A stretch of 64,000 nucleotides of DNA from Gammaproteobacteria bacterium (GTDB lineage Bacteria; Pseudomonadota; Gammaproteobacteria; SZUA-229): positions 124,001 to 188,000 of the forward strand of contig JAOULC010000001.1 of the NCBI GenBank assembly GCA_029882215.1. Reading direction: 5' to 3'. The notes under the pieces are model-generated. The model ran no database searches and was not told the origin of the DNA. It saw nothing but the letters and a program-made list of their open reading frames with translations. Of this stretch, positions 60,036 to 63,989 are shown in pieces. Within the stretch, counting starts at the first letter, position 1. Each line of letters begins with the position of its first letter. Position numbers and translations under genes: made by a program.

Positions 60036-61064
60036 TTATTTACTGCATTTAGCCAGAATCAGTGAAAAATACTCATTAGCTGGCTCAAAGTGATCCGTTA
60101 TCTCCAGCTCAGCCTGAGCCAGTAAACTCTCTATCCCCTCCAGCGAATACTTGCGGCTGATCTCGGTCAGAATTTTTTCACCATTTTGTAAATATAATGC
60201 TTCATTTATAGCGGGGAAGCTGATCTTCTGATCTGCCAAAGACTGCAGGTACATTTCAATTTGCGATTCTGTTTCATTATAAACAGCCTGGTGATTAAAC
60301 TGATGAAGTTTAAAATTTGCTCCTGCTTCGTTATTTAACACCGACAGAACATTTAAATTAAACTCCGCGGTAACACCCTGACGGTCATTATAAGCGGACT
60401 CCAGCACCGCTTTATCTTTGACCCGGTCGATACCCAGTAACAACGAATCACCCGATATCATATGCTGACTAACTTCTTTAAGAAAGCTCACCGCTTGCTG
60501 CTCAGTAAAGTTGCCAATACTGCTCCCCAGAAAGACATAAAGACTGTGGCCGTGCGGTTTTGGCAGGTGTGATAAACCGGCCGAGTAATCTCCTTCCAGG
60601 GGCTGAACCGTCAGCCAGTCATATTGCAGCATCAGCTCCTCAGCGGTTTGTATCAGCATCGGTTCACATACATCAAACGGCCAGTACTGCGGATATTGAT
60701 TTAACATCTGGCAGGCATCAAATAAATGCCGTGTTTTTCGGCTGCTACCGCTGCCGAGCTCGATAATATGATGAACACTGAGGCGGTCAATAATATGCTG
60801 ACAATAGCGGCTGAGTAATTTTGACTCGGTACGCGTCGGATAATATTCCGGGGTATCGCAGATCTGATCAAAAAGCACTGAACCGCGATGATCATAAAAA
60901 TATTTAGGCGGTAACGAATAGGGTGCTTGTAATAAGTTTTGCCTGATATCCGCAGCCAGATCAGCCACCTCGTTAGCTGCGGGCACGCGGATAGCGGCAA
61001 CCGTTTTTTTTTCAGACCCGTCCACAGCCGGGGTCACATCTCGAACAAGATCATGTAAGATCAT
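60036..61064 (-). CDS. egtD: L-histidine N-alpha-methyltransferase (ergothioneine biosynthesis)
   Basis: SLPPKYFYDHRGSVLFDQICDTPEYYPTRTESKLL, IELGSGSSRKTRHL, YVFLGSSIGNFT; ATG 61064. Confidence 0.95.
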   Translation of the reverse strand: MILHDLVRDVTPAVDGSEKKTVAAIRVPAANEVADLAADIRQNLLQAPYSLPPKYFYDHRGSVLFDQICDTPEYYPTRTESKLLSRYCQHIIDRLSVHHIIELGSGSSRKTRHLFDACQMLNQYPQYWPFDVCEPMLIQTAEELMLQYDWLTVQPLEGDYSAGLSHLPKPHGHSLYVFLGSSIGNFTEQQAVSFLKEVSQHMISGDSLLLGIDRVKDKAVLESAYNDRQGVTAEFNLNVLSVLNNEAGANFKLHQFNHQAVYNETESQIEMYLQSLADQKISFPAINEALYLQNGEKILTEISRKYSLEGIESLLAQAELEITDHFEPANEYFSLILAKCSK

Positions 61065-61100: not shown

Positions 61101-61877
61101 ATGTGCCGACTTGCAGCCTATCTGGGAGCAGAAACCAGCCTGAAACATATTGTCTTTGATACAAACCATAGTCTGGAAAAACAGGCATGGCAACCCAGAG
61201 AACTGCGCGAAGCCAGACTGAATGCCGATGGCTTTGGCTTTGGCTGGTATAACCACGGCGCTCTGGTAGCTCGCTATCGACAGACCATGCCGATCTGGAG
61301 TGACAGCAACCTGGCTGACTTTTGTCAGAGCCTTGAGCGCCCGTTATGGCTTTGCTATGTCCGCAGTGCGACCAGTGATCTGGGGACAAGTATTGAAAAT
61401 ACCCAGCCTTTTTATCATAAGAACTGGCAGTTTCTGCACAACGGATATATCAACTGTTTTAATGATATCGTCAGAAAAGAAATACGCGGCTTATTACCCC
61501 ATGAACTTGAATCCTGTATCCACGGCAGGACCGATTCAGAGTATCTTTTTGCACTGATCCTGCATTTCTATCAGCAATCCAACGACATGATCGGTGCTAT
61601 ACGCGAGTGTTTTAGCCAGTTAAAAAAATGGCTGGGTAACGAACGCGCGTTATTAAATATCCTGCTCAGTGATGGCGTACAAATCATTGCCACCTCACAT
61701 GCCATTAACGGTGAATGCCCGAGCCTGTATTACGGCCATAATATTACAGGGTTCCCGCCGCACAGTCAGTTAGTAGTGTCGGAACCCTTTACTGATGATA
61801 TTAACTGGCAGCCTGTGCAGGCTCATAGCCTGATCAGATTACGCCCGGGTAAAACCATGGAAATCCTTAGTTTATAG
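61101..61877 (+). CDS. egtC: Class II glutamine amidotransferase, EgtC-like
   Basis: MCRLAAYLGAE nucleophile Cys2; RLNADGFGFGWY, NTQPFYHKNWQFLHNGYI, GRTDSEYLFAL; divergent from egtD. Confidence 0.92.
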   Translation: MCRLAAYLGAETSLKHIVFDTNHSLEKQAWQPRELREARLNADGFGFGWYNHGALVARYRQTMPIWSDSNLADFCQSLERPLWLCYVRSATSDLGTSIENTQPFYHKNWQFLHNGYINCFNDIVRKEIRGLLPHELESCIHGRTDSEYLFALILHFYQQSNDMIGAIRECFSQLKKWLGNERALLNILLSDGVQIIATSHAINGECPSLYYGHNITGFPPHSQLVVSEPFTDDINWQPVQAHSLIRLRPGKTMEILSL

Positions 61878-61898
61878 GCCGATGCCAGGGAGGGAGCT

Positions 61899-63068
61899 AT
61901 CACTGACAACACCATCATTCACAGATATGCCGCGGCTCAGCACCGGGTCAGACGTATTATCGAGCAACTGTCTGATCACGATTACCGCGCTCAGTTTCAT
62001 CATGAGCTTAGTGCGCTGGGCTGGCATCTGGGTCATTGCCTGTATATTGAAAATTTCTGGCTGCGTGAGTCACTTTTAAATGATGACTCACTGACAAAAA
62101 ATCTTGACCTGCTTTATATTCCGGAAAAATCATACAAACCGGATCGCGGTGGCAAACTACCGCCATTAGAACAACTCATTGGTACGGCTACGAACTATCA
62201 AAATAGTAATATCAGACTGATCAGTGAATTAAACACAAATGCTGTTCGGCACCATTTGTTAAAAGATAACTACCTGCAAAATTTTATTATTCAGCACTAC
62301 GACCAGCACTACGAATCCATGCAAATGGCACTGCAACAGCGCGCCTTACAAACCTGCTATGCAGACTACAGGGTCAGGCAGCCGCTAAGCCCATGTCTGA
62401 CGAACACTGATACGATTGATATTGAAACAACTGAACAAACAGTCGGTTCAGACAGCCCTGTAAGCTATGACAATGAACGTCCCCGACATCAGCAAACAGT
62501 GAAGCGATTTTCGATTGCCAGTAAGCCAGTTAATAATGCCGAATTCCTCGCTTTTATAGAGGACAACGGCTATCAGAACAAAACACTCTGGTCTGCTGCA
62601 GGCTGGCAATGGTTAGCAGAATATTTTGTTGATAAAAAGCCCATGGCACCTGAACACTGGCGACAGGATGAGAGCAGTCACTGGTATGCTATCAATCACA
62701 ACGGTGCATTCGAACTGCCGCCTGAAGGCACGCTGTATGGCATTAATTATTATGAAGCGTCTGCCTATGCCAGCTGGCGCGGAGCCCGCTTGCCACACGA
62801 ACACGAATGGGAAGTGGCAGCCGCAACCCGGCAACTCAAGCATACAGCTGAGGCATGGGAATGGTGCCATAATCGTTTTTACCCCTATCCCGGCTTTAAA
62901 GCCTTTCCTTATGCCGGTTACTCCGAACCGTGGTTTGAACAGCCCCACTTTGTGCTCAAAGGTGGCAGCCTGCACACTCAGAAAAGTATCCGGCGGCGCA
63001 GTTTTCGTAACTTCTTTGGTCCGGATAAACGCCATATCTTTGCTGGCTGTCGACTGGTTTACTCTTAG
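61899..63068 (+). CDS. egtB: Ergothioneine biosynthesis sulfoxide synthase EgtB; proposed non-canonical ATC start (track ORF begins at TTG 62256)
   Basis: Open frame from the egtC stop: ITDNTIIHRYAAAQHRVRRIIEQLSDHDYRAQFHHELSALGWHLGHCLYIENFWLRESLL... HYDQHYE ... FGE-sulfatase domain ending FAGCRLVYS; GGGAGG Shine-Dalgarno-like sequence 61888-61893. Confidence 0.8.
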   Translation: MTDNTIIHRYAAAQHRVRRIIEQLSDHDYRAQFHHELSALGWHLGHCLYIENFWLRESLLNDDSLTKNLDLLYIPEKSYKPDRGGKLPPLEQLIGTATNYQNSNIRLISELNTNAVRHHLLKDNYLQNFIIQHYDQHYESMQMALQQRALQTCYADYRVRQPLSPCLTNTDTIDIETTEQTVGSDSPVSYDNERPRHQQTVKRFSIASKPVNNAEFLAFIEDNGYQNKTLWSAAGWQWLAEYFVDKKPMAPEHWRQDESSHWYAINHNGAFELPPEGTLYGINYYEASAYASWRGARLPHEHEWEVAAATRQLKHTAEAWEWCHNRFYPYPGFKAFPYAGYSEPWFEQPHFVLKGGSLHTQKSIRRRSFRNFFGPDKRHIFAGCRLVYS

Positions 63069-63158: not shown

Positions 63159-63989
63159 ATGAATATCCCTCAAAGTTATATTGAAAGCTCTGTAGCCAGT
63201 GCCCTGCTGGAAGACATTGGCAGCGGTGATGTCACGGGATTATTAATTCCCGAAGATGACATCAGCATGGCAACCATCATCAGCCGTGATGACGCCACGA
63301 TCTGCGGTGTAGACTGGGTCGAGGAAGTATTTGCCCAGCTGAACAGTGAGGTGCTTATTGAATGGGAAGTGGAAGATGGTGAGGCAGTAGAGGCCGGTCA
63401 GACACTGTGTTCTTTAAGTGGCAATTCACGCGCTTTACTGACGGGTGAACGCACAGCCCTGAATTTTTTACAGACACTTTCAGCCACCGCGACCCTCTCT
63501 AGAACCTATGCCGATGCGGTTAAAGGCACAGACTGCAAAGTACTGGATACCCGAAAAACCCTGCCCGGCTTACGCCTTGCACAAAAATACGCGGTCAGTT
63601 GTGGCGGCTGTGAGAATCACCGTATCGGTTTATTTGATGCCATCCTGATCAAGGAAAATCATATTGCCGCGGCCGGCGGCATTAGTAAGGCGGTAGAAGA
63701 CGCCCGTTTCAGTAACCCTGACTTAAGCATAGAAGTTGAAGTAGAGAACATGGCTGAATTACAGCAGGCACTGGATGCCGGTGCAGACCGCATCATGCTG
63801 GATAATTTTACCCCCGAAAAAATTCAAAATGCCATCACACTCACTAACAAAAAAGCGGAGCTTGAAGCATCCGGTGGTATCACGCTAAAAAACATCCGGC
63901 AATATGCCGAGACCGGTGTCGATTACATTTCAATTGGTGCATTAACTAAAGATATTCAGTCAGTCGATTTATCGATGCGATTTAGCTAG
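63159..63989 (+). CDS. nadC: Nicotinate-nucleotide pyrophosphorylase (quinolinate phosphoribosyltransferase)
   Basis: DTRKTLPGLRLAQKYAVSCGGCENHRIGLFDAILIKENH, RIMLDNF, EASGGITLKNI. Confidence 0.98.
   Translation: MNIPQSYIESSVASALLEDIGSGDVTGLLIPEDDISMATIISRDDATICGVDWVEEVFAQLNSEVLIEWEVEDGEAVEAGQTLCSLSGNSRALLTGERTALNFLQTLSATATLSRTYADAVKGTDCKVLDTRKTLPGLRLAQKYAVSCGGCENHRIGLFDAILIKENHIAAAGGISKAVEDARFSNPDLSIEVEVENMAELQQALDAGADRIMLDNFTPEKIQNAITLTNKKAELEASGGITLKNIRQYAETGVDYISIGALTKDIQSVDLSMRFS

Follow-up and report, generated by a model that had tools for sequence, protein, structure and literature searches.

An egtB gene that very probably starts at an AUC codon in an egtD-egtC-egtB locus of a gammaproteobacterium

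The window analysed here is a stretch of 64,000 nucleotides from a gammaproteobacterium of the lineage SZUA-229 (GenBank assembly GCA_029882215.1, contig JAOULC010000001.1, positions 124,001 to 188,000 of the forward strand), near the end of which egtC and egtB are flanked by a divergent egtD and by a nadC-like gene (Table 1). The gene order egtD<-/egtC->/egtB->/nadC-> is common to the source genome (G000) and to two others of its genus, G001 and G002, these being the three egtB-bearing species of the genus, and the egtC orthologues in G001 and G002 show 70-73% identity. The genus genomes named here, including a further one (G003), are metagenome assemblies, G000 and G002 having been assembled independently; the egtB locus of G002 lies on contig JAUVDT010000032.1 (locus L003), and G007 is a relative from outside the genus. 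The egtB frame of the window is open from 61878 to the TAG at 63066-63068, and ATG, GTG and TTG are absent from it before TTG 62256, as a sequence-only reading of this DNA had stated. The same reading had seen AGGGAGG about 5 nt ahead of an ATC, a distance that has been found to be exactly 5 nt.

Table 1. Features of the egtC/egtB locus (window positions) and two further frames with candidate near-cognate starts in the same genome (contig positions)
Feature	Position	Strand	Remarks
egtD, histidine N-alpha-methyltransferase, divergent neighbour	60036..61064	-	NCBIfam TIGR03438 351 bits, cut-off 290.9
egtC, class II glutamine amidotransferase	61101..61877	+	ATG start, TAG stop 61875-61877; NCBIfam TIGR03442 224.5 bits, cut-off 218.65
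Shine-Dalgarno (SD) sequence AGGGAGG	61887..61893	+	5 nt before ATC 61899; pairing energy with the 16S tail of -11.7 kcal/mol
Proposed AUC start of egtB	61899..61901	+	SD-ATC arrangement repeated in G002 (L003:2664, minus strand), without a usable canonical start there
egtB, 389 codons	61899..63068	+	DinB-type 3-His iron domain and FGE-sulfatase-type domain; Pfam DinB_2, FGE-sulfatase; AF2 model
GWHLGH motif, first iron-ligand His at 62034-62036	62019..62036	+	Aligned with EgtB motif KWHLGH of 8qf6; precedes TTG 62256
First in-frame canonical start, TTG	62256..62258	+	Unlikely true start; a protein made from here would have residue 120 of 389 as its first
nadC-like downstream neighbour, ATG start	63159..63989	+	ORF list and locus comparison
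PLP-dependent enzyme, D-cysteine desulfhydrase/ACC deaminase-like, PF00291	G000 C39:60288-61247 (L173:9288-10247), outside the window	+	Relatives L180-L183, L187, L189, L195
TfpB/PilB-type pilus assembly ATPase	G000 C18:4899-6689 (L215)	-	NF053534 921 bits; relatives L221-L223

The egtB product combines a DinB with an FGE-sulfatase domain (Pfam), the architecture by which EgtB is recognised, and its 3-His iron site (WHLxH and HxxxH) has been aligned with that of 8qf6 and is nearly invariant in 43 relatives. The AF2 model of the 389 residues read from the ATC has a mean pLDDT of 94.5 and shows a complete EgtB fold with an N-terminal helix at residues 4-22, for which EgtB 4x8b is the best match in the PDB (TM 0.82, E 9.8e-26). 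The product thus shares fold, DinB 3-His site and FGE-like domain with the sulfoxide and selenoxide synthases of the EgtB/SenA type (4x8b, 6qki, 8qf6; SenA 8ryz), but differs from them in that it remains under both curated equivalog cut-offs, with 259.4 of 360 bits for EgtB (NCBIfam TIGR03440) and 281.7 of 420 bits for the selenoneine synthase SenA (NF041186), and in that its gene adjoins egtC and egtD. By bits, SenA is the closest curated relative, followed by EgtB. The name EgtB is accordingly taken from the operon, where the neighbouring egtC and egtD score above their cut-offs, and from the fold; the protein is a member of the EgtB/SenA superfamily, in which it may form a separate branch together with its relatives.

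The iron-ligand histidines are split by position 62256, with WHLGH encoded before and HYDQH after it, and the alignment bears out the earlier placement of the first ligand upstream (WHLGHC, His at 62034) and of HYDQHYE downstream. The first 119 codons are modelled as the helical first part of the EgtB fold. If translation started at TTG 62256, the first canonical codon in frame (the counterpart in G002 is ATG 2244), a C-terminal EgtB would result, without the first iron ligand and with hardly anything left of the DinB helix bundle, a reading to which we attach a negligible probability, since the upstream codons are also conserved as strongly as the remaining gene. Between G000 and G002, pN is 0.25 and pS 0.83 in the first 119 codons, compared with 23% and 83% in the remainder of egtB, and 57% of third positions differ in the codons before the TTG, as they do in the remaining gene. 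The purifying selection acting on these 119 codons therefore argues that the segment is translated and has been kept.

Within the window, the egtB frame stands out in that 126 codons precede its first canonical start codon, the runner-up among the 50 main frames having 29; stretches of 119 codons free of ATG, GTG and TTG amount to ∼0.9% in the coding frames of the window, a figure which alone proves nothing about the start. RNA folding at the egtC/egtB junction has yielded no structure that beats shuffled sequences (z of +1.2, +0.5, -0.3 and +1.7), and for this reason no structural switch is claimed.

The comparison of egtC/egtB junctions in close relatives, which the sequence-only reading had proposed as a check, has been decisive for the position of the start. 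The EgtB of G002 is 59-60% identical to that of G000, and its frame contains no ATG, GTG or TTG between the preceding stop and the ATG at L003:2244. The egtC/egtB junction is ...CAACTATAAGGAGTTAGTTATCACGGATTCA..., in which the TAA stop of egtC lies inside a perfect SD and is followed after 6 nt by ATC, the aligned position being TAAGGAG-TTAGTT-ATC-ACG-GAT. A near-cognate ATC is thus found at the expected place, with an SD 5-6 nt away, in two species, to which this start is confined: the third egtB-bearing species, G001, has ATG ATC ATT at the junction, with the ATG two codons ahead of the ATT that aligns with the ATC, and homologues outside the genus have their ATG or GTG not in the ATC column itself but one codon before it. 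Of the 80 loci that were kept when 84,980 species genomes were scanned, a set in which the G000 record is absent, the one in G002 stands alone, among those listed with the N-terminal region, in having no canonical start, and every other locus scored for SD energy has a canonical candidate. Locus L048 had been considered as a further start-less egtB and was rejected, as it does have an ATG and its assembly is frameshifted. In a tree built from four linked proteins, G000 groups with G002 (bootstrap 80), a result with which a single origin of the egtB ATC would fit, if not firmly.

The suggestion that start-codon loss or a sequence error explains the frame, so that egtB would have a canonical true start or be a fresh pseudogene, draws on the nature of these genomes as metagenome assemblies and on the egtB genes being only 60% identical, by which each ATC rests on one assembly. 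It would, however, require identical loss in two independently assembled species that share the codon and a nearly identical SD spacing, and in which the frames are intact, purifying selection is seen on both sides of 62256 and the catalytic residues are kept. Because the same arrangement recurs in G000 and G002, error or decay is regarded as very unlikely.

The junctions also bear on the proposal that egtC and egtB form one frame interrupted by a single UAG and are joined by its readthrough into an EgtC-EgtB fusion. The two frames run into each other through one TAG (61875) in G000, but this is no conserved feature: the stop in the shared frame is TAA in G001, which also has the canonical ATG, and G002 closes egtC with a TAA that lies in a frame different from that of egtB, although it retains the ATC behind an SD that is even cleaner. 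Readthrough fusion entails a single frame and a stop conserved in relatives, and with different frames and a TAA in G002, an obligate fusion is excluded as a conserved mechanism. A strong SD placed after the egtC stop also speaks against fusion, as do the homologues, among which no fused one has been seen, and the scanned tRNA loci, among which none has a CTA anticodon. Recoding of UAG has been rejected likewise, TAG being a working stop that ends 9 of the 38 long frames in the window. Taken for G000 itself, the fusion is barely conceivable.

Other initiation points ahead of TTG 62256 are present in the sequence, namely the near-cognate codons ATC 61914 and ATT 61917 and an out-of-frame ATG at 61882 that would have to be combined with frameshifting. 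They are extremely improbable, as SD energies amount to only -3.1 (61914) and -1.1 (61917) and equivalents at matching positions are absent from G002. The SD-anti-SD energies at the ATC are -11.7 kcal/mol in G000 and -8.8 kcal/mol in G002, ranks 1 and 4 of 67 homologues scored, compared with -0.9 in G001 (ATG) and a mean of -3.15 kcal/mol over the 65 homologues whose starts are canonical; this comparison was chosen after the data had been seen, and the homologues are related and not independent. The values fit a strong SD that may compensate for a weak codon.

An ATC start is also used in this lineage by infC, whose start codon across 30 genomes of the family (loci L140-L169) is ATC 29 times and ATT once; the infC ATC stands behind GGAGG-type SDs, and in G000, G001 and G003 it follows GGAGGG. 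Initiation at AUC in the manner of infC and pcnB, the first option of the earlier reading, gains support from the conservation of the SD-ATC pair in G002, where a usable canonical start is absent. Based on the lack of a canonical start, the ATC with its SD in a second species, the selection, the modelled fold and the infC ATC in the lineage, we conclude with high confidence that egtB is an intact gene starting at AUC 61899, its translation being itself inferred.

Near-cognate start codons are rejected by IF3, and AUC is said to have initiated weakly in the E. coli reporters of Hecht in 2017. The initiator tRNA of this genome is ordinary (CAU anticodon, usual GGG/CCC stem), by which an unusual initiator tRNA is ruled out. 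In the proposed mechanism, 30S subunits would bind the strong SD directly, or be handed over in part from the egtC stop, and the ordinary initiator fMet-tRNA(CAU) would be placed on AUC with a third-position mismatch, the strong SD offsetting the weak codon. EgtB would then begin with fMet-Thr-Asp and not with Ile, and its mature N-terminus would probably be Thr after removal of Met (TDNTIIHRY...). Compared with EgtC, EgtB would then probably be made at a lower level that is sensitive to IF3, perhaps with a regulatory purpose, and EgtB output may respond to the IF3 level by analogy with infC and sigR. Between the egtC stop and the egtB start lie 21 nt in G000, compared with 10 nt in G002. In E. 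coli, coupling has been found to drop by 40-80% at 14 nt and to be nearly gone at 38 nt (PMC10666635), which puts the G000 gap at the edge of reinitiation tolerance and has led us to reject strong translational coupling. Reinitiation from egtC is a possible contributor, and because coupling falls steeply with gap length (PMC10666635), the SD is probably the main determinant of egtB initiation.

Known near-cognate starts offer several points of comparison. The infC start is ATT in E. coli and ATC in Streptomyces, and Streptomyces sigR has a GTC start under repression by IF3 (PMC5472188). Both infC and egtB have a near-cognate start behind a strong SD; the infC start, however, serves the autoregulation of IF3, whereas egtB belongs to metabolism and is not known to be linked to translation. 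With sigR, egtB has in common a relation to oxidative stress, a conserved non-canonical start near a strong ribosome-binding site and an operon in which the ratio of products may matter, but sigR is an upstream gene whose GTC has been proven by N-terminal sequencing and mutation (PMC5472188), while egtB is a downstream gene with an inferred ATC start. With a conserved coding region that has no ATG, GTG or TTG at its start, and with an SD and a near-cognate codon kept in a second species, egtB is, on sequence evidence, a new member of the small infC/pcnB/sigR class, which is itself known. A near-cognate start is used by pcnB in E. coli. This housekeeping gene resembles egtB in having such a start in a gammaproteobacterium (E. 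coli, and here G007), and it differs in having ATG in the genus of the window, where it was for that reason rejected as a second positive control. To our knowledge, very few bacterial genes with near-cognate starts are known beyond infC, pcnB and sigR, one reason being that gene finders accept no starts other than ATG, GTG and TTG; standard gene finders would drop the first third of EgtB, including an iron ligand. As the example of egtB illustrates, such starts can be revealed by comparison of related genomes.

Further candidates have been sought as coding-like frames without ATG, GTG or TTG over at least 22 codons in 939 kb of G000 (∼27% of the genome), where egtB, infC and two frames confirmed by relatives were found, the remaining matches looking like chance upstream extensions or a frameshift. 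Among the frames of this genome, a parvulin-like one (L229:2016-3020, contig C1) seems to begin mid-domain right after a stop and is probably a frameshift or pseudogene. The first confirmed frame encodes the PLP-dependent enzyme, whose N-terminal end lacks a nearby ATG, GTG or TTG both throughout the four genomes of the genus and in several other genera; a canonical start is missing in G000, G002 and G003, and G001 has only a late GTG at codon 34. The upstream stop shares bases with an ATA (ATAG or ATAA), or in several other genera with a CTG (CTGA), and from this arrangement AUA is probably the start. The second is the pilus assembly ATPase, in which AAGGA, 7 nt and ATT occur at the same place in 4/4 genus genomes, with no canonical start nearby in G000, G001 and G002 and an in-frame ATG a few codons upstream in G003. 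In G003 (395 kb scanned), infC, the gene of the PLP-dependent enzyme and other frames were recovered, and in the out-of-genus G007 (400 kb) the known cases infC and pcnB (L290, G007:C13:288401-289663, where no canonical start precedes codon 27) along with an integrase-like frame that is truncated. The near-cognate starts found in these scans make AUC initiation at egtB more credible, and they suggest that such starts are not confined here to infC and pcnB, in a sample too small for a rate; to judge from G000, they may be commoner in some lineages than has been thought. One might speculate, with considerable doubt, that the genus uses them beyond infC as a regulatory layer in which the IF3 level tunes a small set for redox metabolism and pili, comprising at least egtB (AUC), the pilus ATPase (AUU) and the PLP-dependent enzyme (AUA). 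These last three offer a concrete set of genes on which control by IF3 can be tested.
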